A stretch of 64,000 bases of DNA, taken from contig OY725490.1 in assembly GCA_963281255.1 (NCBI GenBank), forward strand, positions 1,302,001 to 1,366,000. The letters are read 5' to 3'. This DNA is from Aphrocallistes beatrix (taxonomy: Eukaryota; Porifera; Hexactinellida; Sceptrulophora; Aphrocallistidae). The notes beneath the pieces were generated by a model. That model was given only the letters and a program-made list of their open reading frames with translations, ran no database searches and was not told where the DNA came from. The stretch's first letter is position 1. Each line of letters starts with the position of its first letter. Below, in pieces: positions 13,482-62,575 of this stretch. Made by a program: the position numbers and the translations under genes.

Positions 13482-16400
13482 TTACACAATTGATTTCAAG
13501 TTAGCATATTGAGAAGGTTGATTGGAGAGCTGTCGAGTAGGTAGAGCAGACACATGAGCATAGTTGGGACCTTGATTTTCCTTAGAATTTTCAGACAATT
13601 GTTTTCCAGGTAGAGCAGACATATTAGTGTAGTAGGGGTACTCTTGTTTAGTTGGAGGTGCGTGAGTGAGTTGATTAGTAGGTAGATCGAACAGATTAGA
13701 ATAGTTAGGACCTTGATTTTCTTTAGAAACATTTTCAGAAAGTTGTTGGGTAGGCATAGCAGACATATGAGTGTAGTAGGGGTATTCTTGCTGAGTTAGA
13801 GTTACATCAGAGAGTTGATTAGTAGGTAGAGTGGACATATTTGCATAGTAAGGACCTTGTGTAGATTCAGTAGGATTGTGATGGGACATTTCATTAATAT
13901 AAACATTGTGTTCCAAATTGCTAGAGAAGTAAACAAGTAATATATTTTCGTTCCTGTTTTGCACCATAGAGTTTAACGTTAAGATTTATAGTACGAAATA
14001 AGGCTAGATAAAATATTTGTATATTATAATGCTAATTCTTCAGCATAATGAACTTGTGTTTTATAATTTTGGAGAAATACATACCAAATATCCTCGAATA
14101 GTAGTCGGGGCGATGTATATAATGAATCTTAGCCCCATTTACCACCTGAAGAAAAACTGTATCGATAGGATACGGTATTTATATTCAGAATTCGTTATAT
14201 GGCCGGCAGTTATATCTGCTTTGTTAAATCCGAAGGGTGCAGTTATCAGTGTACCTACTAATCACTAACATTCCTATTGGTCCGAACCAAATCGAGGAGG
14301 AATACGCATCCTCCATATTAATGTGAAGTACTTCCCAGTAAATTAATAAACTTACTCTTCAATTTTCACTCTATCTGATGACTTCCGATCTCGAGATTCT
14401 AATAAAGAAACATATTTGGAAATTTAAAACATTTTCAATAGCATATGTTGCTAGAAGTGAGACTAACCTTTTCTTCTTTTCTTCAAGCAAAATATACACA
14501 GAGTGATTATGATAATTGAATTAACAATTAAGATTAAGACTAAGAATCCAAACACTCCTCCAAACACTAGTATGATGTTGATGTTAGCTGAAACTAAAAA
14601 TATAATGACTCAAAGTGTCATAATAGTAAACTATATAACATTCTATAAAACATACAATGTGAATCACTTAATGAAACTCCTTTTAACCACTTTGCGAATT
14701 AATTTATCAGCAAAGTTCCATTCTTTCCAATTACCAATAACAAGTTGAAGTAATTTATGGCTAAATTAAGATAGTAATGCAACCTAGTATTTTTAACAGT
14801 TGAAAATAACGAAACTTAAATGAACTTACCCATAGGAAATATCGTAGATGGAAGAACAGTAAAGATGGTCATTGTGGAGGTAGGAAAAGGGATACTTGTA
14901 GATACGGACATAGTTGTAGGTTCAGGAGTATATGGAATAGCAAGATTATCTAAGATAGAGAATAATCGAAAATAGATATGATAAATCGATTTGCTTTCTC
15001 TATCAGTAAATTTAATCTTGCTAAACAAATCGTTTAAACATTTTTTTATATGAGAGCAAAACATCTAACAGAACGTAATTGAAATCTTTTGACGCAACTA
15101 TAGATCTCTATTCTCACAAGTTTTTATAGGGAAAAAACCCGATCGAAGTACGTAAATGCTATACTATGTACGATCATTTTATACCAGTTTCAGAGTTACG
15201 TAGTACATCATTAACCGCATACATCGTCGTTTTTGTCATTAAATTGTTACCATACTTGATTTAAATGAACATTCTATTGCTGTTCCATTGAATGGTTGTC
15301 CACACTGTTGTACTATCATCAAGTTAGCTGTAATGTTAATTTCTACTCCATCTAGCTGAGTGAAGTTGTGAGCAGTTAGAACTGTATTGTAACTGAGTTG
15401 AGAAGATGGTAGAGTGAAGTTAGTACTGTCAGTGTATGTGTATGTTACACCTTGTCTACTGTGAGAGTAGATTAGTTGGAGAGAATACGAAATGTCTAAT
15501 CCTGATACTCCTGATGGTAGTGTAGGTGTACTTAATTCCTAAAAAGTAAAGTAGTTTTAATTTTCGTAATAAAAAGTTGCAATATTAAAAAATGTCGGTC
15601 GACAGACCGACAGTGCAGCTCCAGGAAGTGACTCGAAGGAACATGTAATATAAATATCGGATTGCATCGTGAATTACTAATCTTACGGCATTCTGAAATT
15701 TGGAATCTACATATTAATACTATACCCTATATTTGCTATTGAGAGCTAGCTTTTAGCTCAAAATAAATTTATTTTAAAAAGTGTGAAAATATGTATATAT
15801 ACATATGTTAGAAACTCATAAAATGCTTAGATAACCACTTTCAATGTGTTAAAATCGGAATCTACACATCAAAATATCTTATATGAAGCGTTGAAAACTC
15901 GCTTTTAGCTCAAAATAAGATTTTTTTCGAAAGGTGTGAAAATATGTATATATACATATGTTAGAAACTCATAAAATATTCATATTATTACTTTCAAAGT
16001 GCGAAAATCGGATCCTACGTGGTGAAATACCCTACATTAGTCGTTGAGATCTTACTTTTATCTTTAAACAAAGCTTTGCAGTGGAGGTGTTAAAATATGA
16101 ATATAAACTCATAAAAACCGGAAGTGATGAGATTTTGCGAAAAAATGACGGTGCACATCTGCACCATAAAGAGATCCTACATGCGAAATTTGGTAAAATT
16201 CGGACTGTTAGATTTCGCAGTCGCGCGCGTACGGACATAAATACATACATACATACATCATACGGACGGACGAGAAGTCATTATTTTAGTTTTGTTATTA
16301 TTTAACTAATACGTATTTGCAAAAATAATGTTTTGACTAAATATACCCTATATATTCGAATAGAGGGCGACTAACCTCTAGCCCATTTACCCCTGATGAA

Positions 16401-19102
16401 AAATGAATTATTTATTTGGGAGACATTTCAATGAATATACCAGTACAAATGATTGGAAGAATTTAAAGTAAAATTTTATTCTAAAGAGTATAAAAATAAC
16501 ACCATCTTTGGGGCAGTGATTACTCGAGGACCGCAATCCGAGAATACTAAACGGTATTTACTGTCAAAATATTCCTGCTAATATTTATCACATTTACTCA
16601 CCCAGTTAATTGTGAGACTTCCTGTGACATTGTTGTAATCAAGACACACGAACTGAGAACTTTTCATCAGTGAGTAATCTACGTAACAAATCCAAACATA
16701 ATAAAATTTCCTCATAAATGAGTTAGCTATCTCTATTACTTGTAATTGTGCTGTTAGCCATGTATGTTAGAATACTCACTTTTAACAGAGTTAACATAAG
16801 TAGAGCTGTTAGTAGAGTTACCAGCACAGCTCATAGCTGTTACAGAGTACTGATAGTCAGTGTTGATATTCAGAATAGTGGAGTGAAGGTAACTGTTAGA
16901 ATTAGTAGTAGCTAGTGGATATCCATCAAGATACAAGAAATACCTATCTACAGTTCTGTTGCTAGGAGGAGTATTCCATGATAGAGATATGTCAGCTGAG
17001 CAAGTAGCTGTGTTGAAGTTAGACACAGAGCTCTGTAGACTGATGGGAGCAGAAGGAGGAGCTAGGAAATATCATTAAAGTTCGATAGCTGTGCTGCGTG
17101 TGTTTATCTATATACGTTGAATTCTATTTTTTCTAAAGGGGCGGGAAATTTAACCCTGAAATGATACAATCAAAGTAGCAAAATTTCTATTCTTTTAAAG
17201 TATGAGTATTTGGAGCTGTGGGGCTACACAACGTGTGCTACTAACCATGTTATGACTCAAATGTCAATTTGCTGATGAATTTTTAACAATAAGGGTAGGG
17301 GCGAAGTATAATTAGAAATGAGATGGCGCCAAAGTGACGCTTCCTTCCATAGAGTTTTTGTTATTTAATTGTTCTCATTCTTACCTGTCCCAATTTTTAG
17401 TGTGGTCCCTAGACTTTTATATTGGAACATAGTTGCACATATCCGTTCGATTTTCGAAACCTGCTAAATCATCATTATATACAGCATTTCGTAGGTTTAT
17501 CCCTTTGCTTATAGCTAGAAAACAGTCAATTACTGTAGCACTTCCATATTAATACCAAATGTAAATAGTGACATCTAAAACGAATTCCACTGTCAAACCA
17601 ATCGGACTGTCCTATGTTAACTTAAATGATGTTCAAATCTATTCGAATGAGCATCACACAATTCATATTTAAAAGATTCAATTCTTATGAATGTTAAGAG
17701 ATACGTCTACGTACGTGTAATAAAACTGAGATATAGATCACTGAAAACAAAATATATGCGTAGGCGCGTAGCTACAAATATACCTGCTTGAATCAATCGG
17801 ATATTTTCAATTAGATCCATTCCAGTATTTAGAGCCACTTCGCAACCGATGCGTAGTCCTTCATCAGAATTCAGATAAGAAAGTAGAGTGACTACTCCAG
17901 ACACCATCGTGACAGATCCAGCATTAGTATAAGCTGTCAGTCTAGTCAGATCTACATCAGGGTGTGAATTGCTGGTATTGATGTTGTTGGCTGAAAATGC
18001 TACATTAGAATTTCCAATGAGGAAAAAGGGTACTAGAGTTGTGAATGTTTGACCAGCAGGAGGTGTCAGTATACAACTGACAGTGATTCTGTCTCCCACA
18101 CATGCCGTGCTGGGAATCTGAGTTAGTGTACCTAGAATTTACATCTTGGTTTAATAAAGTTTAAGAGGTACTAATGAAATAGAATTTCAATACATTTGTT
18201 TAATCAATATTACATTTGATTATACAGTAGAATCTCGATAAGTGGGGTCTCTATAAATGGGGAACCTCCTTAGATGGGCAATTTTAGCCATCTTTGTTCG
18301 ATTATATACAAACGAACGTCTATAAGTGGAAAAGTGGGAAATAGGGGAGTTGAGAATTTCAGAAATTATCTTTTCATCCAAATTAACCACTTTAATTGGG
18401 GGGGAAAGTGATAAGAGAGCGGTTTTCTGGACACATTTTACAATTTTTAAAACTCTAAAAGCATATAACAAACTATTGGAGAAGAACAGCAGAATATTTA
18501 TGGAGAAAATTCCCACTTTGGGCGACTAAGGCACACACAAAGTGTGTACATCCTGCACAGCGCAGGCAAGCCAAGGGTCCTATAAATTATTTTCTGTATT
18601 TTTAAACCTTCCCTTCATACCTAGATAGAAGGTTGAAATTTCACTATTGCTCCTTTTGTCGATATTTTCAATATTTATTTGAATCTAAAATGGTATATTA
18701 AAAATGATGGTATAAATGCATGCCATGTGTCGAACTTGTGGAGGTTTGAGCGCCTAGATTCGAGAAGAGTACAAAATTTAGATATGAGTTCCCCTAGAAG
18801 CCCCATCAATTGGTCAATTATTCTGAAAGGCGTCCCTCCATTCAGGGTCGCTATTTATATGAACCACCAGGGGGCCAAAACAATTGGTATAACTTCATCT
18901 GAAGCAAATCAAACTCTACTCAGTATGAATATTATGTAAACAAAATAATAATTAACAAAAACTCATAAATATACATACATGTTAAGCAGGTCTATAATAA
19001 GTGACTCTAATAACTACTAGTATGATATGTAAAAATACCTTGGCAAAAAGTGTAAAAGCTGAAGAAAAAAAGCAGCATGAAGTGATTCCCAAACGAACTC
19101 AT
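13482..19102 (-). CDS. Gene A: Ig-like/FN3 transmembrane receptor with tyrosine-rich tail
   Basis: Nine exons in transcription order: 19039-19102, 17784-18131, 16780-17061, 16602-16678, 15256-15538, 14830-14949, 14468-14587, 14356-14398, 13482-13920. Each has AG and GT borders and the phases agree, giving 591 codons without a stop. Residues 1-21 are a signal peptide (ATG in MSSFGNHFML). Residues 22-137 form an Ig-like domain with cysteines in ITVSC and SDEGLRIGC. Residues 138-231 are an FN3 domain; 232-351 a second FN3 split by an intron; 352-391 a Thr/Ser/Pro stalk; 392-431 the transmembrane helix ending in KKRRK. The tail (432-591) repeats the motifs YYANM, YYTHM, YSNL, YYTNM, YAHV and YANL. 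YxxM is the PI3-kinase SH2 docking pattern and YxxL resembles ITAM/ITIM halves. Likely a cell-surface recognition receptor; ligand unknown. Confidence 0.88.
15595..16300. repeat. Dispersed repeat with internal ~155-bp tandem units, in an intron of gene A
   Basis: It starts gtcggtcgacagaccgacag and ends with a catacatacatac run and acggacgga. Within it, a unit of about 155 bp containing gtgtgaaaatatgtatatat and gttagaaactcataaaat is repeated about two and a half times from 15700 to 16120. A shortened relative lies at 10260-10400. The terminal catac run suggests a retroposon 3' end, unproven. Confidence 0.55.
18226..18540. repeat. Pogo-like element relic in intron 1 of gene A
   Basis: The phrase acagtagaatctcgataagt is typical of a pogo-type left end, followed by aagtgggg and ctctataaatgggg repeats. 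Matching relics lie at the same position in gene B (from 29667) and relic E (from 36055), so the insertion predates the gene duplications. Confidence 0.6.
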
Positions 19103-21344: not shown

Positions 21345-24300
21345 TTAAGCTCTTAGAGGAGTTACACGTGTCTTGAATTTCTGCTTAGCACTCTTTTTCA
21401 CATAAATCAGAATACAGATGATACAGACGATACAGATCATAAGGAATAGTATCAAAGCAGAGATGACTGGACCTATTATCAACACTATTGTGATCGAGGG
21501 AGACGCTAGAGAAGATGGGATTTAATAAAATTATACAAAATTTCACTCAAATTATACAATCTTTAAATGAGTTCTAATACAGAGTAGTACAGAGGATAAA
21601 AAAGTTATCCTCTGTGCCCGTTGTTGGGGACTACCAAAGAAATAAGTTTCAGACCTGTCTATTTGTGAAATTTTTCTCGAGTAATAGAACCATTAAATTA
21701 AAAAGAAACAAAAAATGTTGTAGTTTCTAGTAATACTACTATATAGGGATAATTATACAGACAATATACATTGTCATTACCTAATACTACTAGTACTTTA
21801 AAACCTGCGGTTGGTGTAGTGTTTTTTCTATTTATAGTCAGACCCCAAACTTGTATGGCTTCCCCGCCCAAAATGGCTTAAACAGGAAATGACGCAACAA
21901 AACACCTCGCCAAGCGCGGGTTTTAATTAAGTAACTACATTGTATATGTCTATAGAGCAAGGATAAAATTGGGACATGTATAGAAATGATTTGGTGCTGC
22001 TAGGCTCCTGTTAACATTGAATTTACTTACTTTTCTTCATTCTCGTAATACTTGGTAGAACTACGTGTCCATCAGTTAAACTCATGTTGATATATGTAAC
22101 TAGTAATATGTTAGTTGCATTTGGACTTGGATTTAGATTGAAAGAATCAGGAATAGTAAAACTAAAATTGAAAGGTAGGTTGAGGTCAAATTTTGTTATC
22201 ATTAAGGACTTTTGAGTTTCTCGCTGGTAGACTGTTAAATTGAAAAGTTCTTTCGAAATGTAGTAAGACTCCGTGCAAATTGGACTATAATAACTCCATG
22301 TTATGAGTAATGGACTCTTTGAAGTTATTACAAATGATCCGCTTCTATTGCTCAACCCTAGTAACACAATCTGTTAATATCGAATACTCGTAGCAAAAAT
22401 CTAATACTCCATTAAGACATACTTTGAAGAGAAAACTTTCTGGAAAATTGAGTTATAATTCCTCCTGAACATAATGGAACAGAGGCAGATGCTCGATAGC
22501 ATATACCAAAAGAAAAATTGTGAGAAAATACCACTGTATCTAGATCTGAATAAGTAATGTTAGTGAGTGTGTCTATAACATCTGTATTGTTGTAGAGAGT
22601 TAGGTTGAATTGCAATGGAGAGAATGCTATCATCTGAGTTAAAACAGGCCTAATAGAGAAGTTGGCCAGTACTATTTGAATACCAAGTGTAAATTCTGCT
22701 GGAACTAGAAAATAGCAAACAATAATATATATATATATATATACGTAACGAATTGATTGAAGAAACTGCCAGTCACAGAAAGCTGATTTTTGGCATGTGG
22801 GACTCTTTTGGCTATAGCTCTACTAAGTTCTGACCTCAGACATGAAAATGTCGACTCATCATGGAATTATGACGTCATTGCCACCTTTTTCATTATTATA
22901 ATTTTCGGTTTTTCGACTATAACTAATCCATTTAAGGTGATAGAAGGCTGAGATTTTAATAGAATGTGTTTATTAATATACTTTGCATATGATGCAACAA
23001 TCATCAAAAATGATGACTCATCACTTTGTTATGACGCCATCATTATGATCAAATTTTAAAAATTGACAAATTTGGTGATTTTTCGTGTGATATCGATTAT
23101 AACCGTAGGACAGACGTATTTAGGGATGTTATCTCCCTTATAATTAATCAATGTGACCCAGGCGGACACAAAGTGTCCGCCAAACGCGAAGCGCGCTTGT
23201 TGCAAATAATATTCTCAATTGTCATAGTTAAAGCAGTACAACATTCTAGCAACTATTGGTCTTGACTTGGAATCATGACTAACTTAGGTAGCAAATATAC
23301 ATAATGCAGTTACCAAATATAGTTATATTAGCGGGAGTCGAGTTTCCAGCACAGCTAGCAGCAGCTAGGGAGTATAGGTATGCAGTATTGGGGCTGAGTG
23401 GATCTGTGTCTGTGTACTGAGTGGTGGTGTTACTGAGTGTAGAGATGAGAGAATTGTTACGGTACAGATAGAACTGAATTAGAGTTCTGTCGGCAGCAGG
23501 AGCTACCCAGAATACACTCACTCCGAAACATGCAGATTGTATAATCATGGGAGATGACGGTGGATCTAAAACACATTAAGATATCATTTTATATTAATTT
23601 AACACAGAGTTTCACGTTTTGAAAAGTCTACAATCCATTAATTATGACAAGTCATCAGCACTGAAATTATTTTAAATCAATACATACCTACTTCCTGCAA
23701 TTGTAGGGTGGCAATTAATATTATAGTAACGCCAAACATATTATCTCTATACATCTGCCCACATCCAAGACGAAGACCTGCATCCGATTCAGTGTAAGAG
23801 AGAAGAGAAATAGTTCCACTCACACTCTTAGAAGTACCGGCATAAGCAGTGGCAGTCAACTTAGTGAGGTCGACATTCCCATGCGTACTGTTCAGGGAGT
23901 TTATGTCAGAAGCTGAGATGAGAGTATTAGATGTCCCAACTACGAAACTGATTGTATTGGATGCGAAATTATTCATTACATTCTGAATAGTTAAGTTACA
24001 GTACACAGCTATTCTCTCTCCAATACAAGCGTGTGAAGGTGTTTGAGTCAAAGTAGTTGAGGTAGCTGATGAAAGAGTTTGTAAATGTGATAATAAACAA
24101 TTGAAAACTTTAAAGCAACACACGTAGGGATTCCAATCCCGGCCAAATTTCTCAATCCCGGGATTTCGGGATTCAAGATCTTTCCAATCCCGGGATCCCG
24201 GGATTTTTCGGGATTGTATCTTGCAGCAAAATTTATTTAAATTTTAATTTGGAAAATTTAGAGAAGGAAGATATTATTTAATTTAATTCTTGACAAACTC

Positions 24301-24980
24301 TTTGAAAACAAGGGATGTACTTTCTGCCATAAAAATATGAGATAATCGTAATTTTTGATTATTTATTATTATAGAAAGCCTATTTATAGATTAGTAAATA
24401 GTAATACAGTACATACTTGTAAATCGTATTGTTGTTATTTGACACTGAATAGTGTATTTGTAAGTTACCATTGTAAATAGGATCTTGTTTCCAAGTAGTG
24501 TGATTGGTAATTGTAAGGAAATTGTTCAATTGACTAAAGTTTCGGGATCCCGGGATTGAGAAGGTAATCCCGGGATTGAAATATCGAGATCGGGATTATA
24601 AAACTAATCCCGGGATTGAATCCCGGAGGTAAAATGGACCGGGATCCCGGGATTGTAACCCTTAAACACACGTGATACATAATACATGGTGTAGGAAATT
24701 ATTGGTAGGGACATGGCCCTACCAATAATTTGAATTGGGACAGTTTCTTCTATTGATCAAATTACATATTTCAGAGATAGCACTACCAATTCTAAGTCGT
24801 AGCCCAAAGCTCTACCAATCCCACTTAAAGTCTTCCTGTGTACACAACATAAACAATTAGCAACAAATTATATTTAAATTTTAATAAATCTCGCTTACCT
24901 GATGCTGATTGGTGGGATTGCAGTAGGGTGTAAAGTATGGAATAAGTCAGTAAATATACGTGATTCCTCTCTGACTTCAT
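21345..24980 (-). CDS. Gene C: Ig-like/FN3 transmembrane receptor with short basic tail
   Basis: Six exons: 24899-24980, 23688-24065, 23314-23565, 22423-22704, 22031-22357, 21345-21505. All introns are phase 1 and the joined frame has 493 codons. The signal peptide (MKSERNHVYLLTYSILYTLL) precedes an Ig-like domain with TPSHACIGER, a first cysteine in IAVYC and the second in SDAGLRLGC. Then comes an FN3 domain (SVFWVAPAADRTLI, ending SCAGNSTPAN), a diverged pair of FN3-like exons rich in N-glycosylation sites, and a terminal exon with a transmembrane helix (VISALILFLMICIVCIICIL) and a short tail rich in K and R (VKKSAKQKFKTRVTPLRA). Unlike A, D and F the tail has no YxxM or YxxL motif. The second FN3 pair is not closely similar to those of A or D. 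For the fifth exon I chose the acceptor at 22358 over the one at 22371 because only it keeps phase. Confidence 0.85.
21802..21922. mobile_element. piggyBac-like miniature element with TTAA borders
   Basis: It lies between TTAA at 21798-21801 and 21923-21926. The ends aacctgcggttggtgtagtg and the inverse of aacccgcgcttggcgagg match. Related copies occur at 2792-2906, 26960-27082 and 25834-25922. It is in the last intron of gene C. Confidence 0.7.
22724..23200 (-). repeat. Repeat R1 in an intron of gene C
   Basis: A near full copy in reverse orientation: an AT dinucleotide tract, gtaacgaattgattgaagaa, the body, then ggcggacac/gtgtccgcc and gcgaagcgcgcttg at the end. It fills most of the intron between the exons at 22704 and 23314. 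Confidence 0.7.
24125..24664. mobile_element. hAT-like element with 8-bp target duplication in intron 1 of gene C
   Basis: The 540-bp element begins tagggattccaatcccgg and ends with the inverse (ccgggattgtaaccctta). The direct repeat aacacacg flanks it at 24117-24124 and 24665-24672. Both ends carry many copies of atcccgggatt, giving strong local hairpins. No open frame of note. Confidence 0.85.
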
Positions 24981-31438: not shown

Positions 31439-31856
31439 TACTGCATATTTGATAAAAACACACACTTACCTACACTTTTTGTAATCCTGAGCATTCTATG
31501 AAATGATTATTGAACACTTGTCATTACGTATGATTTATGATTGTAGTGAGTGGAACAAGACTGCACATAGTTAATAATTTAGTTTAGCTCTCTGGGGGGG
31601 ACATTTGAAAACATTTATTCGAGTACAATATATGGTAAATAATCAATGCCATCATTCACGACTTTATAAACACATTTGGTTTTTAGATCGTTTTATATGT
31701 TTCACCAGCTATATAATATTAAACATTTAAAAAAGTAACGCACCTAGTATAATTTACAAACAGCCTGATAAATAAAGTTATTGATAGTAAAAACCAAAAA
31801 ATATCTTCAAAGGTCACAATTTTGTTCCGTTCTCTAAATTAGGAATGCATATGGAG

Positions 31857-35902: not shown

Positions 35903-36490
35903 CGATAGTGATTCTGTCTCCCACATATGATGTGCTAGGAGTCTGAGTTACTGTACCTAGAATTTAAATCTTGGTTTAAGAAGGTTTAAGAGGTACTAAT
36001 GAAATAGAATTTCAATACATTTGTTTAATCATCAATATTATATTTGATTAGACAGTAGAATCTCTATAAATGGGGAAATTTTGTCCATCTTTATTCGATT
36101 ATATAAAAATGAACCTCTATAAGTGGGAAAGTGAGAAATGGGGGAGTCAAGAATTTCAGAAATTATTTTCCTATCCAAATAAACCACTTTAATGGGAGGA
36201 GTGATAACAGTGCGAAATTTTAAAAAATCGCTTGTCCAATTTTCAATTTTTTTGGGCGCGTAATGATGACATCATAACAGAGTGATTTTTGATGAGAGTT
36301 GTATCATATTTTAGATATATTAATATACATATGCTATTAAAATTTCAGCCTTTTATATAATATCACCTAAAATGGCTGAGTTAGAGTCGAAAAACTGATA
36401 TTTCTAATTATAAAAAAGGTTACAATGACATTATAATGCCATGATATGACGAAAAAAACCCAGCGTGAAGTGATTTCCAAACGAACTCAT
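35903..36490 (-). pseudogene. Relic E: 5' end of a gene A-type receptor
   Basis: Two pieces remain. The signal-peptide exon (36451-36490) reads MSSFGNHFTLGF, then runs into R1 sequence and loses its donor. The beginning of the Ig-like exon (35903-35954) reads TVTQTPSTSYVGDRIT after an intact attctag acceptor and then ends abruptly; the first cysteine codon has become tyrosine. A pogo relic and a degenerate R1 fragment (36234-36450) fill the intron. No FN3, transmembrane or tail exons. Confidence 0.75.
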
Positions 36491-45400: not shown

Positions 45401-48400
45401 TTGTAACTGAGTCGAGAAGATGGTAGAGTGAAGCTAATACTGTCAGTGTATGTGTCTGTTACATCTTGTCTACTGTGAGAGTAGAGGAGCTGGAGAGAAT
45501 ACGAAATGTCTAATCCTGAAACTCCTGTTGGCTGTGTAGCAGGTATACTCAATTCCTATAAAGTAATTCCAAATTTAATGTAAAATGCTAAAATAATAAA
45601 TGCTCTTATTTAACCATTGGAGAACTTTTTTAGTGTGTGCTTCCTCATACAATTTTATAGGTGCACAGTTCTAAAATGAGTATTGATGTCCGACCATAAT
45701 CTCTCCCCTAGCAACTATATATACATTACACCTTCGCTAATCCGAACAACTTTGTACCAAAGATCGAAAAATGGTTCGGATTAGTGTATTCCTTCCGATT
45801 AGTAAAATAACAATTCAATGGGGATTTAACGATAACAAGCGCGCTTCCCTTGCGCTGCGGGACTTGCGAACACTTTGTGTCCGCAGAGTCTCCCTGCGGG
45901 CGCTTTGGAGTTACTCAATTTAACTTATTTTGGGAATTTGTTTACTTTCTATAAATATTGTAAACAAATATTAACAATTAACTTCTCAAATAGCTTCGAG
46001 AATATGATATTCGAAATCTACACCGCTAAAAACCACATGTCACAGTTTGTCTTTTTTACCTACTCTAATCATAGCGGTTACTACATGTATAATGGCTAGT
46101 TTTGTTGGTTGCCCAGTGATGTTCAAAGCTTTTTATCTAAAAGTAGAAGGTTCCAAGGTGAGGCGCATAAATGCTTCAATTGAGCGGATATTTTCTAACT
46201 TTAGTTTAGTTCAGAACAAACTCGAAATAGATTAGACTTAGAGAACCAGCAAAATTGGTAACATGTTATCGGGAATTGAGAGGTTCAGTGGAGTTTGATT
46301 GGTGATTTGCTTTTCATTTGTTTTGGATTTTCAATGGTGTATTAGATTTGATATGCACCTCTTACCATGGGCGTAGCGACCAAATATTATTTGGGGGGCT
46401 GGATATATTTTAGGGGGACCATTATTCAGATCAAATTTCAAATTTCAAAGTTATTTATTTATTTTGGGGGGGCCAGGCCCCCCCATGGCTACGCCCATGC
46501 CTCTTACAATAAATACACTTATAAAATTAATTATACGTTTTAAATCAAGGACAAAACTGGGAAAATCCGTTTCTGGAGAATAAAACCCATTTTAACCCGA
46601 GTTAAACTAATTAAACCCGGGTTTTACCCGGATTTAACCCACTGGGCTGGGCAAAACCTATTTAACCCGGGTTAAATTCCAACCCTGCTATACACATTAT
46701 TGTTTTGTATTAATAGCAATGATAGCCTTAATAGTGTCGTACAATGATTTTTATTGAGAGAGTGAATCCGTACATAGTATTGTATAGAAAAGGTGTGAAA
46801 ATTTCGCTCTGATCTTCGAACTTAATCGTAGACTTTTTTACCTGTGTGATAAAATTCACATTTCTAGCACCTCTCAGTTCCTCAATCAATTCTGCACAAA
46901 CAAAACAAAAACATTGCGTTTTAACATTTCCAAGCGCGCATCACTTGCTTGCGCTGCGCGGCTTGCAGACACTTTGTGTCCGCCGGAGGCCTGTGGTCAC
47001 TTTGATTAATTATTAGGGAGATAACATCTCTAAATATGTTTGTCTAACAGTTAAATTAAATTTTTGTAGCGTAATGATGACGCCAAAAATAGGGTGATGA
47101 GTCTTCATTTTTGATGAGAGTTGTATCTTATGTGAGATATATTAATATACCGTAAACTGGGGCGACTTTGGCCCACAATAGCAGTTTTAATAAAATACTC
47201 AAACTTACGAATCAATGTGATTACATTGATAATGTGTTGAATGAAACTCTCAATATAGCCACAGGCATAGCATTCTAATACACTAAGGCAATGGCGCAGG
47301 CCTTTTTTTCTGGACCATGGATTGGTTAAACGAGCTAAGTGAATTTATCACTAATTATCAATTTAACATTTGTTCGCTTTCTATTTGTCCACCACACTTA
47401 CTAAAGTCATATCATTGAGCCCAAAAGGTTAAGTACTTAATAAATGAGCGTTTATAATCATAATATTAATTGCAAACAAACAAATACATTCGAAATAGAT
47501 TCATAGCACAGCACGGCAAGACTAACAATATACACTAAGTAGAAATAATCATTATTGAAATGGTGAATTACATAAATTAAAATTAGTAAACTGAAGGATG
47601 TTATGAAGAGAAGATAATATTCTAAGATTAAGGAAGATTAAAACGTTGTTATTCCGTTAGACATCACTTCTCTCTCTTCATCCTTTATCCCGTCTTGTCA
47701 CACCATTCCTACGAAAGAGAAGGATTATTCATAGCCTACTATAATAAGGTCTCAGAGTAACTTGCGAATTAGGCACTAGGGATGCAGTAGAAGATGGTTG
47801 AAGAAATACATGAGCTGCCTTAAATCATTAACAAAGCACAATAGAGCTTAAGAATGTATTACCAGCATATATAAATATGGTGTCAAAGCACCCATATCCG
47901 TTGTTTAAATTTAGATTAGTCATCAAATGATTGCGCAACAGGTTATATTTGGGTCAAATTTAGTGATTTTCAGAGGCCGTTTAAGGGCACTTCTAAGTGT
48001 TTTTATTATAAAGTTTTTCGCATAGAACTGAGAAGTGAATGTGTTAATACTAAAAATTTGGAATTTTTTCATGGAATGTTCTTACATTCCAGTGTTGCCA
48101 TGGAAACGTGTTTAGGTCAGTTGGGGCTATATCTTGAAAACAGCGATAGCTAGACATTCAAATTTAATCCCATTTGATAGCAAATAGGCTACTTCCTATT
48201 AAGCTATAATACAATTTCTATGTCTTAATTCAATAATTTACGAGTTATTAGACAATTTATCATTTTGGTCACATTTGGTAATTTGTCGAATATCTCGTAA
48301 ACCATTGAATTTAGACACAGAAATTGTATTATAGCTAAATAGGAAGTCGCCTATTTGCTATCAAATGGGATTAAATTTGAATGTCTAGCTATCGCTGTTT

Positions 48401-49891
48401 TCAAGATATAGCCCCAACTGACCAAAACACGTTTCCATAGCAACACTGGAATGTAAGAACATTCCATGAAAAATTCCAAATTTTTAGTATTAACACATTC
48501 ACTTCTCAGTTCTATGCGAAAAACTTTATAATAAAAACACTTAGAAGTGCCCTTAAACGGCCTCTGAAAATCACTAAATTTGACCCAAATATAACCTGTT
48601 GCGCAATCATTTGATGACTAATCTAAATTTTAACAACGGATATGGGTGCTTTGACACCATATTTATATATGCTGGTAATACATTCCTAAGCTCTATTGTG
48701 CTTTGTTAATGATTTGCAGCTTATGTATTTCTTCATCCATCTTCTACCGCATCCCTGGTTAAGTTACTCTTAGGCCTTATATATAGTAGGCTATGGATTA
48801 TTATACTTCACAACGATACAATTCTCTCACACATATCAATCCATTTGTCATCAGCTATGATTAAAATTAATACTAGTAATTTAGTATGAGTTGAACCGGG
48901 ATAAAACTGTTTTCGAAGAACTTGAGAGTTAGCAATTTGATGAAAGTTTTATGGATAATACAAGTAGTAACGCAGTCGATAACAGCAATATATGGATATG
49001 GATACATAAGTGACCCCTGTCTAATAAATCTATGATAATTTATTGAGATCCCTTATCAGTTGTTAAATAGGTTAGATTTTTGTATAAGAGAAAACTGCAC
49101 ACCCAGCCACGTTATTAGGTTAAATACATTTCTTTATTAAAATCCCTGCAAACTATTCAAATATTCTTCAAGAGCTATAACTACTGTTAATAGTAAAGTT
49201 GTTTCAGCTCTAAAAAGACCTTCAGTGGGGATGCGGGCAGGCGTTATATCATGACCATTATCTCATTATTTTATAATATAATCAAGGCTGATAATTTGAT
49301 ATATAATTGGCTACAAACATTTAATTCACACATTGAAGTATCAATAACCATCAATATATTTTGAAATGCTGGTATATCGACTCGATCATTATATTCAACA
49401 AGCGCGCTTCGCTTGCTTGCGCTGCGCGGCTGGCGGACACTTTGTGTCCGCCGGAGGCTCCCTTCGGTCGCTTGGAGGTGACATTGGTTAATTAAACGGG
49501 ATATATCATCTCTAAATATGTCCATCTTAGTTTTAAAATCGATATCACTCGAAAAAACACCAAATTTGTCAATTTTTAAAATTTTGATGAGTAATGATGA
49601 CGTCATAGCAAAGTGATGAGTCATCATTTTTTGATGATAGTTACATCATATGTGAGACGTGTTAGGATACAGATTCTATTAAAATCTCAGCCTTCTATCT
49701 CCTATAATGGCTGAGTTATGCCCGAATAACTGTGTTGCTTAACTTTTAAAAATGTGACAATGACGTCATAATTCCATGATGAGTCGACATTTTCGTCTGA
49801 GCTCAGAACTTACTGGAGCCATAGCCAAAAGACTCCCACATGCCAAAAATCAGCTTTCTGGGCCCGGCAGTTTCTTCAATCAATTCGTTAC

Positions 49892-49926
<35 letters not shown>

Positions 49927-52900
49927 AGCGCGCTTCGTTTGTTTGCGCTTCGCGGCTGGCGGACACTTTGTGTCCGCCTGGGGTCACATTGGTTAATTAT
50001 AAGGGAGATAGGATCTCTAAATATGTCTGTCCTACTGTGATAATCGATATCACTCGAAAAATCACCAAATTTGTCAATTTTAAAATTTTTGATGCGTAAT
50101 GATGACGTCATAACAAAGTGATGAGTCATCATTTTTTTATGATAGTTACATCATATGTGAGGTATGTTAGTATACAGATTCTATTAAAATTTCAGCCTTC
50201 TATCTCCTTTAATGGCTGAGTTATGCTTGAATAACTGTGTTGCTTAACTTTTAAAAATGTGACAATGACGTCATAATTCCATGATGAGTCGACATTTTGC
50301 TCTGAACTCAGAACTTACTGGAGCCATAGCCAAAAGACTCCCACATGCCAAAAATCAGCTTTCTCAAAATGGGTATTGCGCATTTTAATTTTTAAACAAA
50401 AATATTAACTTTTGTGAAAATTATTGATGTTTGAATTTTTATATTATAAATCACATATAAAAAAATTAAAGCCCCAGTTTTTTGCCATCAAACTCTTGAA
50501 ATATTGATGCTAGAAATATTTCCTTTGGAACACGTTTATTTACGTTTCGATCTATTTTATATTTCAAATATTGTCTCAAACTGTAGAATGCCCAGCATTT
50601 TATGGCTTCAGTGCCATAGAAAATGGCTGGGAGACATCCGCGATATCGGGGACACTGTGTCCCCTCTGGGCATTCTACGGTTAATATTACAGTCAACGCC
50701 CCTTAATCGGGAAACCGGTCAATCAGGACAACCGATTATTGGGATAAGTCTCCTGGAACGGAATGGTCCCAATACTTATAAGCCAAAACTAAATTTCAAC
50801 GGTTAATTGGAATCCCTGCTTAATCGGGACCAAGTTGTCCGGATTAATTGAGTAACGTATTTAAATTTACACAGTATGTATAATCTCGATTTCTATTATG
50901 CATAAACAACACATGTAAACAAGCATGAGCAAACTGTTCAAACAAATCAATAAATGAATAATCAGAAGTAAATGTTAACGTCGCATCGGTCAGCTTGAAA
51001 TACAAGTTGGATTGCATTAATACAGATACGAATTCTCAGAACAAGAAGGTAGTAATCATCTTCATTGTGAAATGCGTCAATCATTTCTGGAATGTATAAA
51101 CAGGAAATAAGTCGAGGAGTCATCTTGTCATCATATCCAAATCTTAAACCATCAAAAGAATAGTGATAATTGAATGATTGTGTGATAAGACGGTTTTAAT
51201 GTATATATATATATATATATTTATCTCTCGAATATTATGTTGCTATTTTGGGAATTGGGGTTCGCAAATAGCTAAATTATTTCTATGTATGAGAAATTTA
51301 TTAGTACCCTTTCACTGTATCACTTGATAACTGAAGGGAGTAGTTAGATTGATCTTTTGCAGAAACCATTATTTAATTATCAACACCATATTTATATAGT
51401 ATTAGTTGGTATTTATCACTTTTAACCNNNNNNNNNNNNNNNNNNNNNNNNNNNNNNNNNNNNNNNNNNNNNNNNNNNNNNNNNNNNNNNNNNNNNNNNN
51501 NNNNNNNNNNNNNNNNNNNNNNNNNNNNNNNNNNNNNNNNNNNNNNNNNNNNNNNNNNNNNNNNNNNNNNNNNNNNNNNNNNNNNNNNNNNNNNNNNNNN
51601 NNNNNNNNNNNNNNNNNNNNNNNNNNNGGGGACACAGTGTCCCCGATATCGCGGATGTCTCCCAGCCATTTTCTATGGCACTGAAGCCATAAAATGCTGG
51701 GCATTCTACAGTTTGAGACAATATTTGAAATATAAAATAGATCGAAACGTAAATAAACGTGTTCCAAAGGAAATATTTCTAGCATCAATATTTCAAGAGT
51801 TTGATGGCAAAAAACTGGGGCTTTAATTTTTTTATATGTGATTTATAATATAAAAATTCAAACATCAATAATTTTCACAAAAGTTAATATTTTTGTTTAA
51901 AAATTAAAATGCGTAATACCCATTTTGAGAAATAAGTGTCATTCAAAGGAAAACTATTTCTTCTAATTACTTACAGAGATATTCACAAATAACTGAGACA
52001 AGAATTCACTATCAAAATGCTAAGTCACCTTAGGAAATTTGACACATTTGAGGCGTTTTATGAAATACCCAAATGCTCCTCTTTCCACAGGTATAATTAT
52101 TTTTAACATAGAACGCATACATTTTGAGATGTGTGCGTTTTAGAGAGGATTTTGAATCCGTCGCTGAAACTTTAATGGGATTTATAATGCAAAAATTCAA
52201 ACGTTAATAATTTTCTCAAAAGTAAATATTTTTGTTTGAAAATTAAAATGCGTAATACCCATTTTGAGAAATAAGTGTCATTCAAAGGAAAACTATTTCT
52301 TCTAATTACTTACAGAGATATTCACAAATAACTGAGACAAGAATTCACTATCAAAATGCTAAGTCACCTTAGGAAATTTGACACATTTGAGGCGTTTTAT
52401 GAAATACCCAAATGCTCTTCTTTCCACTGGTATAATTATTTTTAACATAGAACGCATACTTTTTGAGTTATTTGCGTTTTAGTGAGGATTTTGAATCCGT
52501 CGCTGAATCCGTCGCTAAGATAACACTCGTTATATATATACACATTAATCGAGTTTTAATAGTAGGATAAATTATTAAATATACATTAATCGAGTTTTAA
52601 TAGTAAGGATAAATCCTTGTACCTGAAATATAATGGGCTACTGATGGCAAAATGACAATATATGCGGTAGCTAAATATTGATGCGGGCGAGGAGATGAAA
52701 CACGGTCCCAATTAACAGTCCTATACTAGGATTTTGGGATTGTTGTTTAATCGAAAAAAATGTGAGATGATTGGATAATTCAAGTCGACGTTCACGATCC
52801 AAAATTTGACAATAATAAATAGTATACAGTCAGGGTCGCGTATTGTGAACCACCAGGGGACCAAAAAATCTGTTCATAATATACTTCATATTAAGCGAAC

Positions 52901-54905
52901 TTGTCAATACATATCCTATCTAAAAATGAAATTGGGACCAGGAGGTTAGTTCATAATAAACGAATGTTAATATTAAGCGGGTTCATATTAAACGACCCTG
53001 ACTGTAGTTTGAACTAGATACGTATCTGACAATATAAGCTGAAATGATGTTTTATTCAGTTTTAATGGATCATTTTGTATTCGAGCCTGTTAGTAAATAT
53101 AGGTTTCTGAAATAATTATCTTAATTAAAAAAAAATAGTTATTGGACGCATGAGCTATCCAGGCGTTTCGTAGGTCGAGCGTCGAGGTCGCTAAGCTAAG
53201 AAAGAAGATCTGAAAATGAACTAACTAAGAACTTATCTACCTTTTCTTCGTTGTTAGTTATGCTCTTAGTAGAGTAGGCAGATTCCACCAGCAATCGTTC
53301 AGTGTGGTCCAAAGATAGTCTCTTAGGCTTGGAATTCCATTCAGAAAGATAGGAAGTGTAGTCGGGGAATATACTGGGTATTGAAGTTTTATTTAGAGCT
53401 ATTCTATCCTGGAAACTGTAACAGCACGAAGCCCGTCATTGTAGGCAATGGTTCTCTCGATGTCATCTGGTTTGAAAGAATGTATACATATCTAAACAGT
53501 GTGTAGAAGTGTAAATGTGACAATCAGTTAATAAGGAAAATACAATAGAAACTTACTCACATCAGCGTGTTTACTTCCTAGTCTTTCCGTGGGCGTGGAA
53601 TTACTCTAAACGATTCTTTGGGAAGTGAAAAGCAAAAGGATATTCTGCTTCACTTTTATAGTTGGACTTGCAGCCTAGAACAACACAGGACATGTCGTTC
53701 CGGAAGAGTAATGAAGATGGATGCTTATGTGGAGTGTTTCGGATCAACTTTGAGTCGTGTATAGGAAAAGACAGTGATTTGTAAAACTTCACAACAAGGT
53801 AGCAAATAAATATATAATTCATGTGGTTGATTTTGAAACAAAACAAGTAGTATGTTAATATATAAGCAATATGGTTGCTTAAAATTAGTTTAACCACAAA
53901 TTCTCTACAGTGCCATCCTCGAACCAATTTGAAGAAAATCGATACAGTATTAATGAAAAGGATCATTATATAATATACGAAATTATATACCAGCATAATC
54001 CAATCATTTTCAGAAAAATTCATTTAGCTCGTTTAACCAATCCATGGTCCAGAAAAAAAGGTCTGCGCCATTGCCTTAGTGTATTAGAATGCTATGCCAC
54101 AGGTATTTAAACCGCGATATTTCTGGTATATTTTATTAAAACAAGCGTATATGAATATTGTAAACAAAAGTTAACGAATAATTTCTTATATGGGTCCGAA
54201 AATATAAAATTCGAAATCTACACCACTAAAAACCACATGTCAACCATTAAAAGCTAGTCTCTAGCCTATTTTGAGCCCGCAGGGAGACTCTGCGGACACG
54301 CAGTGTCTGATGCCGCGCAGCTCCAGCAAGCAAAGCCCGCTTGTATAAGATAAACTTCAATTCAAAACGAAGAGGCGAATGTCATTGTATTTTTTGTGTT
54401 CGGATTATATTGGTGTTTGCATATATTTGACATAATAAACTTACCCAATAAACAGTGAGACTTCCTGTAACATTGTTATAATCAAGACACACGAACTGAG
54501 AACTCCTCCTCAGTGAGTAAACTAAAATTCAATATTTTAGAATTTGTTTACGAGTAAATTACCTATATTACAAGTCAACAGGTGTGATACTTAGTATTAA
54601 TTTACGGTTATTAAAAGACTTACTTGCTCCAACAGAGTTAACATTAGTAGAGCTGTCAGTAGAGTTACCAGCACAGCTCATAGCTGTTACAGAGTACTGA
54701 TAGTCAGTGTTGATATTCAGAATAGTGGAATAATTGTAACTGTTAGAATTATTACTAACTAGTAGAGATCCATCAAAATACAGGAAATACCTATCTACAG
54801 TTCTGTTGCTAGGAGGAGTATTCCATGATAGAGATATGTCAGCTGAGCAAGTAGCTGTGTTGAAGTTAGATACAGAGCTCTGTAGACTGGGAGGAAAAGG
54901 AGGAG
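42446..54905 (-). CDS. Gene F: FN3 transmembrane receptor with YVPM tail, 5' end not found
   Basis: Five phase-consistent exons: 54624-54905 (FN3, ends SVGAS), 54445-54521 (first part of split FN3, ending in TGG before gtaagt), 45270-45555 (second part), 44500-44571 (Thr/Ser/Pro stalk), 42446-42747 (transmembrane helix and tail). The intron 45556-54444 is 8.9 kb and holds repeats, a broken THAP gene and the assembly gap; all others are short. The tail reads YEYIEI, DYVPM and terminal YANLK, almost the same as D. The FN3 exons are nearly identical to those of A and D. I found no signal-peptide or Ig-like exon upstream before the Ginger element, so the gene may be truncated, or its 5' exons may have been displaced. 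Because the long intron spans a gap, the join of the two halves is an inference; they could belong to two incomplete genes. Confidence 0.65.
42913..43465. repeat. Foldback element, about 553 bp, in an intron of gene F
   Basis: The left arm starts caattgtgttagctttgaaa and the right arm ends with its inverse (ttgacacaattg). The arms of about 260 bp share long near-identical runs, for example agtctaactcagcgagtttt and the inverse. The centre is near 43189. No coding sequence. Confidence 0.8.
43587..43662 (+). repeat. R1 head fragment
   Basis: Only the GC-rich head (caagcgcgcttcgcttgctt and a gcggacac/gtgtccgc hairpin) is present. Similar heads alone occur at 45836-45908 and, inverted, at 54274-54344. 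Confidence 0.65.
43723..44357 (-). repeat. Repeat family R2, copy 2, in an intron of gene F
   Basis: Nearly identical to 20391-21007, with a longer (caaa)n run followed by an a-rich tract. Confidence 0.7.
46370..46500. mobile_element. Small element with catgggcgtagc inverted ends
   Basis: It starts catgggcgtagcgacc and ends with the inverse (ggctacgcccatg). Next to the ends are runs of g and c, and the interior is short. No coding sequence. Confidence 0.7.
46560..46690. repeat. taacccgggttaa-rich small element
   Basis: Several copies of aacccgggtt and gggttaaa in both orientations lie within 130 bp, ending near aattccaaccctgc. The style matches the hAT-like element in gene C, but no target duplication was identified. 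Confidence 0.5.
46931..47152 (+). repeat. Partial R1 copy
   Basis: The head caagcgcgc and the hairpin are followed by about 150 bp of the body; the copy then ends near gatatattaatataccg. Confidence 0.6.
47722..48804. repeat. Long inverted repeat, about 1.08 kb
   Basis: The arms of about 530 bp are highly similar: for example ttgcgcaacaggttatattt on the left and its exact inverse on the right, or tgtctagctatcgctgtttt. The centre is near 48268 in a short unique spacer. No protein frame; RNA copied across it would form a long hairpin. It lies in the long intron of gene F. Confidence 0.85.
49398..49924 (+). repeat. R1, first of a head-to-tail pair
   Basis: A complete head and body, ending in a pure AT dinucleotide tract of about 35 bases in place of the usual terminal attaatcgagtttt. 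Confidence 0.7.
49925..50364 (+). repeat. R1, second of a head-to-tail pair
   Basis: The head starts immediately after the AT tract of the first copy. The copy is cut at aaaatcagctttct, where the inverted repeat flanking the gap begins. Confidence 0.7.
50365..51936. repeat. Inverted repeat flanking the assembly gap
   Basis: Bases 50365-50661 and 51628-51936 are inverse copies of each other, ending at ggggacactgtgtcccc at the gap side. Between them are about 760 bp of unique sequence, including a pogo-like relic (50690-50860), then the gap. Confidence 0.8.
51428..51627. other. Assembly gap, 200 undetermined bases
   Basis: A run of exactly 200 n. The round size suggests a placeholder rather than a measured length. 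The right border touches one arm of the inverted repeat. Confidence 0.98.
51843..52510. repeat. Direct tandem duplication, about 339-bp unit
   Basis: The unit containing tgcgtaatacccattttgag, aaataagtgtcattcaaagg and ttttgaatccgtcgctgaa appears twice in a row with few differences. The first unit overlaps the end of the inverted repeat. Confidence 0.8.
52827..53004. mobile_element. Pogo-like miniature element, fourth subfamily
   Basis: 178 bp, starting cagtcagggtcgcgtattgt and ending with the inverse (taaacgaccctgactg), with TA at both flanks. Confidence 0.75.
53241..53693 (-). pseudogene. Broken THAP zinc-finger gene, two exons
   Basis: Exon 1 (53561-53693) starts MSCVVLGCKSNYKSEAEYPF and reaches FHFPKN, the first half of a THAP domain (C-x4-C). 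A frame change then follows, and a TAG stands where the conserved tryptophan of the WxxVN region would be. Exon 2 (53241-53491) begins near ICIHSFKPDDIE, matching the THAP CxxHF segment, with a further frame change before IALNKTSIPSIFPDY. THAP domains bind DNA and are common in P-element-type transposases and their host derivatives. It lies inside the long intron of gene F, in the same orientation. Non-functional. Confidence 0.75.
54020..54115. repeat. Inverse copy of the segment at 47250-47345
   Basis: The run accaatccatggtccagaaa and the following bases to ctatgccacagg are the inverse of those at 47250-47345. Probably the end of a small element; borders not resolved. Confidence 0.6.
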
Positions 54906-56176: not shown

Positions 56177-56345
56177 TGCTACGGAACATGTTGACATTTG
56201 GAAAATGTTAACATCTATCATGGTAAATGTTAACATCTACCGCGGTAGATGTTAACATTTACCATGGTAGATGTTAACATTTTATTTTCAATTTGTTTAA
56301 TGTATTTTAGACGGCTTTCCTAATGCTTTCACTTTCACATGATAA
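56177..56345. repeat. Left terminal repeat of the Ginger element with palindromic units
   Basis: After the terminal 30 bases, the unit atgttaacatctaccgcggt and variants is repeated about four times, each unit being itself self-complementary (atgttaacat, taccgcggta). The right end (59618-59715) has two such half-units. Confidence 0.8.
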
Positions 56346-56615
56346 ACATCTTTGATATGTCGATTTTGTAACTGTTTACATTCTAAATATGTTTACTACC
56401 TGATACAGATGGGAGGAACAGGTGCAATAATCGAACTATCGAGAATCAAATTTCAAAAAATTATAAAAATAATGATAGATCTTATTTTCTTTACTGCTTT
56501 CGTCCTGGTACAGATGGGGCAGATAGATGATCTATCTTTCCTGTTTGTTATAAGAGCCAAATAAATTATAAGTACATATAAAAAATCTTATTTTCCTACA
56601 CGTACTTTTGTTCAT

Positions 56616-59255: not shown

Positions 59256-59719
59256 TGGAATCAGAAGTCCTAAGATTCAAGTTGAAGAACCATCTAAATT
59301 TCCCGAAATCGCTAAAATTAATTTTATCGCATTTATCTTAGTCGTTTAATTAATTGATAACATTCCTTAGTATTCTTGGATCATCGTTACATTATCTGTC
59401 TTAGCATACATACATATATACTACTGTATGTCACAACTGTAATAATAAAGTAGATTAGTACCCTAATTAGCTTGTATAATTAACTGAAGAGGACTTGGAT
59501 TAATTAATATGGCATTTGCGTGGGGGTGCGGTTTTCGGAACCTATAAAAGTATGAGGTAGTTACGATGAAAGTTTTAATTAAACACCTGGTAAAAAAATG
59601 AAATTGAAACTATTTCGGAAGCCGTCTAAAATACATTAAACAAATTGAAAATAAGATGTTAACATCTACCGCGGTAGATGTTAACATCTTCCAAATGTCA
59701 ACATGTTCCGTAGCAGATA

Positions 59720-61063: not shown

Positions 61064-61110
61064 TACATGCATTTTACTAAATTAAAACTGACCTGAAGGT
61101 TTAGGAAATT

Positions 61111-62575
61111 CTAGACATCTTCTTTATGTGAATGCTTTTTCTTATAGTGGTATAGAACACAGCAGATGATGGTCGCAATGATAATTATTAATATTAATAA
61201 CAATAAGACAGCAGATATGGGGGACAATATTTCCAATAGCGGAATCTCATTTGTTTCTGGTGGAACTATAAAAAATACTTTTTAATATCCATGCAGTGGG
61301 TTTTTTTAATATTATACTCACGATGAAAAATAATAAATAGATAATACGTACATAACTCATTTAATAACATAGACTTGTCTCGTTACTAAGTTACTTAAAT
61401 AGTACAAGAATAACGGCCTTAACAAAAAACATGCACATTTAGTAAAAACTATATATCTCATCTCCTTCTGCCCTACAGATCATGTCATTATAATATGGCA
61501 AGTGAATGAAACTCCCATTACTTTTTAGACTAGGGATGAAAATAAAATGCTATGGCAATTCAAAATATGAAGACTCATCAAGGACATGATTAACCTTGAA
61601 GTGTATTACCAGGATATCTAAACAATATGTACCGGAATCCATTATTAAATATGCTTTATCATCATTATGTTGCTCAACATGTTTTCTTTAAAAATTGAAA
61701 ATTGTTGATTTTAATATTAGTTCCTACACTCTTATTCGCATCTTTAATATTCATCTTCATTTGTTTAGAAATATGTGGAAATATGCATTTGAATACTCAC
61801 ACATTCCAATAAATATTTCCCCATATTTATAAACAACTGACCCATAAATGAAATTTCCCACGCAAATATAAGGAACTACCAAAGTAATTACGAAAAGTAG
61901 TTACCAATGGCATAACTAATCCTTCTCCTTTAATCTCCCCACAAAATGAAGTGAATAAATGCTATTTTAGAATATAAAACAACTTCCAAATCATTTTCAA
62001 TGGCATGGCGTAATTTGAATGCCAGTCAATTCGTACCACGTACCAACTCGTACCAAGTCAAATTGTACCGAATCAACAGAAAATCCTGCTTTCATTGTGT
62101 TCTTACAAAGATCTCATCCAAAATGCAATAGAAATCGTACATTTCATTTTGGTAGTGGTACTAGTTGAATTTACTATCTGGCACGAGTTGACTTAGTGCT
62201 TTAGGACGAGTTGGTAGTTCGTGTAAGTTGACTGATTCCCCGTAAGATTATTATGGACAAAGTTACAACGTACAATTAATAAAACTAGTTATGGCTTACT
62301 TTGATCATAATCAATGTTAACAGAGCTGATAGTAGAGTTACCAGCACAGCTCATAGCTGTTACAGAGTACTGATAGTCAGTGTTGATATTCAGAATAGTG
62401 GAGTGAATGTAACTGTTAGAATTAGTAGTAGCTAGTGGAGATCCATCAAGATACAGGAAATACATATCTACAGTTCTGTTGCTAGGAGGAGTATTCCATG
62501 ATAGAGATATGTTAGCTGAGCGAGAAAATGTAAAGTTAGATAGAGAGCTCTGCAGATTGGGAGCAGAAGGAGGAG
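61111..62575 (-). CDS. Gene G: FN3 transmembrane receptor 3' portion with short tail
   Basis: Two exons are visible: FN3 (62300-62575, starting after tttaatag, ending in gtaagc) and a terminal exon (61111-61265) with a juxtamembrane segment, a long hydrophobic helix (AVLLLLILIIIIATIICCVL) and a short basic tail (YHYKKKHSHKEDV) before TAG. Phases agree (phase 1). The FN3 exon is nearly identical to those in A, D and F except near its start (NFTFSRSANISLSW), where the usual cysteine is missing. The second FN3, stalk and tyrosine-rich tail are absent. Exons for the signal peptide and Ig-like domain were not found in the 0.7 kb upstream. It could be a partial gene or a short-tail member like C. 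Confidence 0.65.

Follow-up and report, generated by a model that had tools for sequence, protein, structure and literature searches.

Exon-bounded homogenisation in a tandem cluster of putative recognition receptor genes from the sponge Aphrocallistes beatrix

What keeps two exons of a tandem receptor cluster nearly alike while the rest of the same genes drift apart, and what kind of receptor does such a cluster encode? The question is raised by a 64,000-nucleotide stretch of the genome of the hexactinellid sponge Aphrocallistes beatrix (assembly GCA_963281255.1, contig OY725490.1, positions 1,302,001 to 1,366,000 of the forward strand; this whole stretch is hereafter the window, in whose coordinates all positions are given). 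Seven related receptor loci (A, Z, B, a relic, D, E and G) lie on its minus strand between 13482 and 62575. Two of their exons, FN1 and FN2b, are far more alike at silent sites than the introns, the FN2a exon, the immunoglobulin-like (Ig) exon and the tail, and the borders of this likeness lie at splice sites. The exon-bounded homogenisation, an unusual pattern, is the main new result presented here, and we think it best explained by ectopic gene conversion in a cluster of receptors evolving by birth and death.

A cluster of seven receptor loci

A sequence-only reading of this DNA had proposed seven related loci on one strand within 49 kb, encoding Ig-like transmembrane receptors in tandem. 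Similarity and a profile search of open reading frames (ORFs) confirm the loci, and gene models support the receptors. The modules seen in the sequence are a signal peptide, an Ig domain, an FN3-like domain, a further module (FN2, encoded by FN2a and FN2b), a stalk, one transmembrane helix and a tail that either carries tyrosine motifs or is short. Exon borders were set by hand and then checked by script. Genes A, D and Z encode complete in-frame type I membrane proteins, their joined exons being open and in frame with GT-AG borders. As a yardstick of openness, 19845 stretches of 282 bp were drawn at random from the window; in a given frame, 362 of them are open.

Gene A, complete, 13482..19102, minus strand: 9 exons, 591 amino acids.
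Exons of A, N-terminal half, minus strand: signal peptide 19102-19039, Ig 18131-17784, FN1 17061-16780, FN2a 16678-16602.
Exons of A, C-terminal half, minus strand: FN2b 15538-15256, stalk 14949-14830, transmembrane 14587-14468, cyt1 14398-14356, tail 13920-13482.
Gene Z, complete, 21345..24980, minus strand: 6 exons, 493 amino acids; short tail without a Yxx[LIVM] motif.
Exons of Z, minus strand: signal peptide 24980-24899, Ig 24065-23688, FN1-like 23565-23314.
Further exons of Z, minus strand: unrecognised domains 22704-22423 and 22357-22031; transmembrane and tail 21505-21345.
Locus B, a broken copy of A, 27790..30403, minus strand: signal peptide 30403-30340, Ig 29572-29225, tail 28231-27790.
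Relic of A/B type, 34873..36490, minus strand: start of the signal peptide, 17 Ig residues, then the Ig-FN1 intron.
Gene D, complete, 38534..41495, minus strand: 6 exons, 488 amino acids.
Exons of D, minus strand: signal peptide 41495-41441, Ig 40867-40508, FN1 40063-39782, FN2a 39703-39627.
Further exons of D, minus strand: FN2b 39407-39125; stalk, transmembrane and tail 38943-38534.
Locus E, incomplete in the window, 42446..54905, minus strand: no Ig exon found.
Exons of E, minus strand: FN1 54905-54624, FN2a 54521-54445, FN2b 45555-45270, stalk 44571-44500, transmembrane and tail 42747-42446.
Locus G, incomplete in the window, 61113..62575, minus strand: FN1 62575-62300, transmembrane and short tail 61265-61113; no Ig exon found.

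Most junctions of the cluster are in phase 1 (six of eight in A). In A, D and E, FN2 is interrupted in phase 0, and in A the junction ahead of the tail is in phase 2. A further candidate exon of A, 'tail2' (14145-14083), was dropped; it breaks the frame, and cyt1 joins the tail in phase 2. The proposed common layout and domain order, its split FN3 excepted, is seen in the complete, in-frame A and D; Z has two other domains, and for E and G the full layout is not demonstrable.

Locus E spans about 12.5 kb and includes an 8.9-kb intron with repeats and a gap of 200 Ns (51428-51627). This intron also holds an inverted repeat of 305 bp, 100% complementary (50360-50664 and 51628-51932), one arm of which ends at the gap. 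Profiles run against every stop-to-stop ORF of at least 25 codons in the window, a search that short exons can escape, found no Ig exon for E or G, and a search by similarity to the A signal peptide, the sole approach used, found no signal peptide for either. For both, the first exons may be located beyond the window or in the gap, or may have diverged too far to be recognised; every exon found in the two loci is free of premature stops, and E retains a full tail. Elsewhere the ORF search added to the listed FN1, FN2 and Ig exons just the relic fragment at 35.9 kb and weak matches: FN1 at 10126 on the minus strand (E 0.079), and Ig on the plus strand at 34181 (E 0.87) and at 1840 (E 0.002). 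The last (1840-1992) was set aside as a partial match of 36 columns in a short ORF. Positions 1-13000 and 31800-34500 were inspected as ORFs only.

Homogenisation confined to exons

Silent divergence (dS) was estimated by the Nei-Gojobori method, with gapped codons and stops excluded. The FN1 and FN2 rate comparisons exclude Z, in which FN1 is 36% alike and the other domains are unrelated, and they do not involve B and the relic, both of which lack FN exons. Among A, D, E and G, dS in FN1 is 0.048-0.133 in all six pairs, and in FN2b it is 0.080-0.186 in all three pairs of A, D and E, whereas FN2a, which sits between these exons and 78-102 bases from FN1, gives 0.416-0.542 in the same three pairs. 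The tails of D and E differ by a dS of 0.728. For this pair, silent differences number 10.5 in 131.7 sites of FN1 and FN2b against 30.7 in 65.8 sites of the tail (Fisher p 5e-10); the comparison of FN1 and FN2b with FN2a yields Fisher p values of 0.0036 (A-D), 0.035 (A-E) and 0.0027 (D-E), all tests using rounded site counts and taking sites as independent. Ig exons have a dS of 0.115 between A and B and of 2.2-2.7 in four pairs, with Z-D saturated.

Flanks and introns are mostly near shuffled identity, splice signals aside: the Ig-FN1 introns of A and D, for example, are identical at 0.458 against 0.469 after shuffling (one shuffle apiece served as control in these intron comparisons). Identity tends to peak in the middle of an exon and to drop in the 40 bases at either end. 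Constraint on the protein is no explanation for the likeness of FN1 and FN2b, because the ratio of amino-acid-changing to silent divergence (dN/dS), 0.51-1.72 over nine pairs, is in no pair clearly different from 1 by bootstrap. The value of 1.72 belongs to FN1 of E and G. We claim no positive selection: the fraction of bootstrap replicates in which the proportion of amino-acid-changing differences exceeds that of silent ones (pN>pS) is 0.14-0.87 for FN1 (six pairs) and 0.15-0.52 for FN2b (three pairs).

Broken copies

That the cluster would contain relics is borne out by locus B and by the relic fragment. Seven collinear pieces align B with A at 81-93% identity across introns and exons. B has no counterpart of A 17670-14524 (about 3.1 kb, comprising FN1, FN2, the stalk and most of the transmembrane exon); 195 bases, largely dispersed repeat, replace the missing segment, and one splice donor is altered. 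The relic retains 13 residues of the signal peptide and 17 of the Ig domain. Because the pieces of B are collinear with A and the relic aligns to A on either side of the lost Ig middle, we interpret both as decayed segmental duplicates of the A type. The dispersed repeat occurs in both orientations (22724-22845, 28943-29064, 36985-37106, 49573-50364 and 446-804), with one copy at the lost FN exons of B.

The tip and the stem

The Ig exon of A (17784-18131) was modelled with AlphaFold2 from an alignment of four paralogues (predicted local distance difference test (pLDDT) 81.3, predicted template modelling score 0.74). Foldseek comparison of the model with the PDB gave five chains at E ≤0.001, CD8aa first (3.5e-4) and then antibody light-chain V domains, at a template modelling score of about 0.58 and a root-mean-square deviation of about 5. 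A profile built from the four Ig exons gives weak matches to V regions of light chains (best E 5e-4), limited to roughly its first 30 residues, and the B and F strand cysteines are invariant in all four exons. On this model the tip of A is a V-set Ig domain, an assignment that is firm for the A type and upholds the Ig-like prediction, for which a structural check had been suggested. Between the Ig exons of A, Z and D, identity is 24-44%, D and A being at 24%. A contrast had been noted between a divergent N-terminal Ig domain and conserved downstream domains. It is real, but arises largely because FN1 and FN2b have recently been homogenised, and fast evolution of the Ig domain is unproven. Pairwise dN/dS gives no sign of diversifying selection on the Ig exon (0.97 for A against the broken B, 0.24-0.44 in four older pairs, whose dS is saturated; no value is defined for Z-D).

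FN1 of A (16780-17061), scanned alone, scores 24.6 bits against Pfam fn3 (cut-off 25), and is 89% identical in amino acids to that of D, 86% to that of E and 81% to that of G. The FN1 profile finds 12 PDB sequences at E ≤0.1, with DUF3472 proteins first (3.9e-6), and also chitinases, FN3con and receptor phosphatases (RPTPs). In the suggested Pfam check, FN1 came near the fn3 cut-off, and FN2 and the three Ig exons scanned had no match. The earlier label 'split FN3' for FN2 was not upheld: Pfam and PDB profile searches were empty, and hhalign against FN1 scored 14.4 against 13.5 for a reversed control (probability <1%). The two further domains of Z, which resemble each other weakly (E 0.029), likewise had no match in Pfam or PDB profile searches and were not recognised as FN3 (hhalign against FN1 11.7 and 13.5, reversed controls 10.1 and 12.0, probability <1%).

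The tails

Tyrosine-motif tails are present in A, D, E and the remnant B, and short tails in Z and G, as had been predicted for long SH2-docking-type and short-tailed members. The tail of A runs for 167 amino acids from the membrane and contains 12 tyrosines, including those of YANM, YTHM, YTNM, YINE, YSNL, YAHV and a terminal YANL; those of D and E have YIDL or YIEI, YVPM and a terminal YANL. Compared with 5000 shuffles, YxxM in the A tail, a CD28-like SH2-docking type, is above chance (3 against 0.34 expected, fraction 0.0018), as are YxN (5 against 1.22, 0.0026) and Yxx[LIVM] (6 against 2.00, 0.0056). Yxx[LIVM] is likewise enriched in D (4 against 0.82, 0.0020) and E (4 against 0.76, 0.0008). 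The transmembrane segments of the short-tailed Z and G have no charged residue. The YMNM motif of CD28 is described as docking p85 and Grb2, YxNM fitting p85 through M at +3 and Grb2 through N at +2 (PMC3425079).

Explanations for the cluster

We consider it probable, on the sequence evidence, that the locus is a birth-and-death cluster of single-pass cell-surface recognition receptors with exon-bounded conversion and CD28-like docking tails. Ectopic gene conversion would halt where intron homology ends: introns too diverged to recombine would hold its tracts within exons, and FN2a, at 77 bases, may not be long enough for conversion. The Ig tip would bind a ligand or a molecule of similar kind on another cell, and Src-type kinases would phosphorylate the tail tyrosines. 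Once phosphorylated, YxNM, YxxM and YxN would recruit PI3K p85 and SH2 proteins of the Grb2 type, in the manner of CD28, and different SH2 proteins would dock at YxxL/I sites. Members with a short tail may be non-signalling or competing partners, and the common FN stem may allow receptors to pair with one another or to be displayed in the same way. A role in immunity or allorecognition is plausible, and recognition of self, of other individuals and of microbes would look the same in the sequence. We give little credence to the more specific proposal of a self/non-self cluster in which conversion keeps the FN exons near-identical as a common pairing chassis, the V-set tips and the PI3K/Grb2-type versus short tails diversify, and signalling is CD28-like in allorecognition or immunity.

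Several observations weigh against the explanation by recognition receptors with conversion. The Ig exon of D is modelled weakly (pLDDT 56) and has no Foldseek match at E 0.001, its best rows being mostly Fab light chains at E ≥0.07, and Pfam matched Ig in none of the three Ig exons scanned. In whole proteins, fn3 scores of 19.3 (A), 22.4 (D) and 14.0 (Z) are all below the cut-off of 25, and the fold of FN2 is recognised by neither Pfam nor PDB profile search. The motif counts of A are inflated and not independent, because a 144-nt tandem unit (2.3 copies, 80%, 13536-13859) makes up much of the tail exon. In D and E, YxxM and YxN occur once each, not above shuffles. Immunoreceptor tyrosine-based inhibitory and activation motifs (ITIM, ITAM) are above chance in none of the three tails (ITIM once in A against 0.40 expected and absent from D and E; ITAM absent from all three). 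The short FN1-FN2a introns retain identities of 0.53-0.66 against 0.44-0.49 shuffled in three pairs, and the sharpness of the borders is thus not absolute. GC content at third codon positions (GC3) is 0.24-0.35 in the homogenised exons and 0.24-0.39 elsewhere. Because it is not raised, GC-biased conversion is unsupported; raised GC3 has been taken as a mark of conversion elsewhere (PMC2720389). Finally, tblastn found no relatives in viral, bacterial and archaeal records, sets that hold no animal genomes: pattern-matched stretches (FN1 19, Ig 110 and FN2 31 in viral contigs, and FN1 64 in other genome contigs) included none that it confirmed, and the repeat pattern had no match in either.

The low silent divergence of FN1 and FN2b could instead reflect recent exon shuffling or constraint at the nucleotide level. 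The coincidence of the borders with splice sites and the absence of a GC3 rise are what this account would lead one to expect. Constraint on the protein fails, however, at a dN/dS of 0.51-1.72, and precise insertion of two separate exons at several loci would be less likely than conversion; a patch templated by complementary DNA would have covered FN2a, which is old and not homogenised, and conversion from such a template is rejected on that ground. We regard this alternative as improbable. The cluster could also be mostly decaying, with A, D and Z alone working and the others pseudogenes, for which B, the relic, the apparent absence of Ig exons in E and G and the dN/dS of 1.72 in their FN1 speak. 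Against it, the exons found in E and G have no premature stop, E keeps its full tail, and the first exons of both may be outside the window, in the gap or too diverged. We hold widespread decay to be a real but lesser possibility.

The receptors might, in turn, be ordinary Ig/FN3 adhesion or growth-type receptors, tandemly duplicated, with no part in recognising self, non-self or microbes. Ig with FN3 is a common layout of adhesion and cytokine receptors, and YxxM/YxN tails are also found in adhesion and growth-type receptors. A sponge transcriptome study lists putative cytokine receptors that combine Ig, FN3 and kinase domains (PMC8242945). The dN/dS of 0.24-0.44 in older Ig pairs also reads as constraint and not as diversification. 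This account has more difficulty with a broken copy, a relic, differing tail types and exon homogenisation within 49 kb, cluster traits that are more usual in recognition families. We judge it unlikely and retain the interpretation of a recognition cluster shaped by conversion.

Comparison with known receptor systems

The Alr genes of Hydractinia are described as clustered and much duplicated single-pass receptors of the immunoglobulin superfamily with V-set domains and tyrosine motifs (PMC11067881, PMC11999971, PMC13119343, PMC12065747), as are the genes here. Going by descriptions, Alr combines V-set with I-set domains and ITIM/ITAM-type motifs, whereas the sponge cluster has one V-set, FN3-like and other modules, with YxxM/YxN motifs prevailing. 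Similarly, the Botryllus fester co-receptors (FcoR) are described as 520-610 amino acids long and clustered, with a signal peptide, a variable-type first Ig domain, a transmembrane segment and a long Y-x-x-I/L/V tail; FcoR are set apart by a sushi domain, two C2 Ig domains, an ITIM or hemITAM and a neighbouring fester partner (PMC12065747). No sushi or Ig match was found in A, D or Z with Pfam at E 1, a search that also misses the V-set of A and that a diverged C2 domain could escape.

Vertebrate paired receptors (KIR, LILR and SIRP) are tandem, have long and short tails and share modules between genes, and the sponge cluster resembles them in all three respects. Their ligand-binding domains are typically shared, whereas here FN1 and FN2b are shared and the Ig tips differ (24-44% among A, Z and D), the Ig domain of the short-tailed G being unseen. 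CD28 has one V-set Ig domain and is not known to carry an FN3 domain; the sponge cluster differs in its FN3-like module and in several tail motifs arranged in repeats. The likeness to the CD28 family lies in one V-set Ig domain, a transmembrane segment and a YxNM tail that fits p85 and Grb2, the tail as given in PMC3425079. In a limited look at the open literature, no description of a family of this layout appeared among the matches listed (titles and abstract openings).

Neighbouring genes and elements

The window is animal-like in character, being AT-rich (GC 0.30-0.41) with spliced genes, a GT10 fucosyltransferase, an LRAT-like gene and transposon pieces (Tc1-type, hAT and gypsy-like). Rfam and tRNA scans of it gave no matches. 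Inside the cluster, between B and the relic (31860-33080), lie a GT10 fucosyltransferase ORF (31863-32858, minus strand, Pfam 123 bits) and, beside it, an ORF with a weak UBA_4 match (32862-33080, minus strand). An LRAT-like gene in two ORFs (8171-9158, plus strand) adjoins the cluster, and a hAT transposase dimerisation piece is found at 10346-10672 (minus strand). Directly downstream of G is a Tc1/mariner-type transposase ORF of 286 amino acids (60101-60958, plus strand), and upstream of G a Myb/SANT-like ORF (63481-63984, minus strand), possibly transposon-derived. Retroelement-like ORFs (56565-59252, plus strand) upstream of FN1 of E include a RING/PHD-like piece and a match to an integrase core that stays below cut-off. 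A nested, hairpin-like inverted repeat occupies 47822-48715 (247 bp at 99% and 210 bp at 92%).

Implications

Should the cluster prove to be a recognition locus, the few known invertebrate systems would gain a receptor type that has V-set tips and signalling of CD28 type, not of ITIM/ITAM type. Exon-bounded homogenisation that keeps the stem alike between genes, with tip and tail left free to diverge, would provide a concrete and testable rule for how such receptors could keep a shared partner surface, and the gene models presented here permit direct tests of polymorphism and expression.

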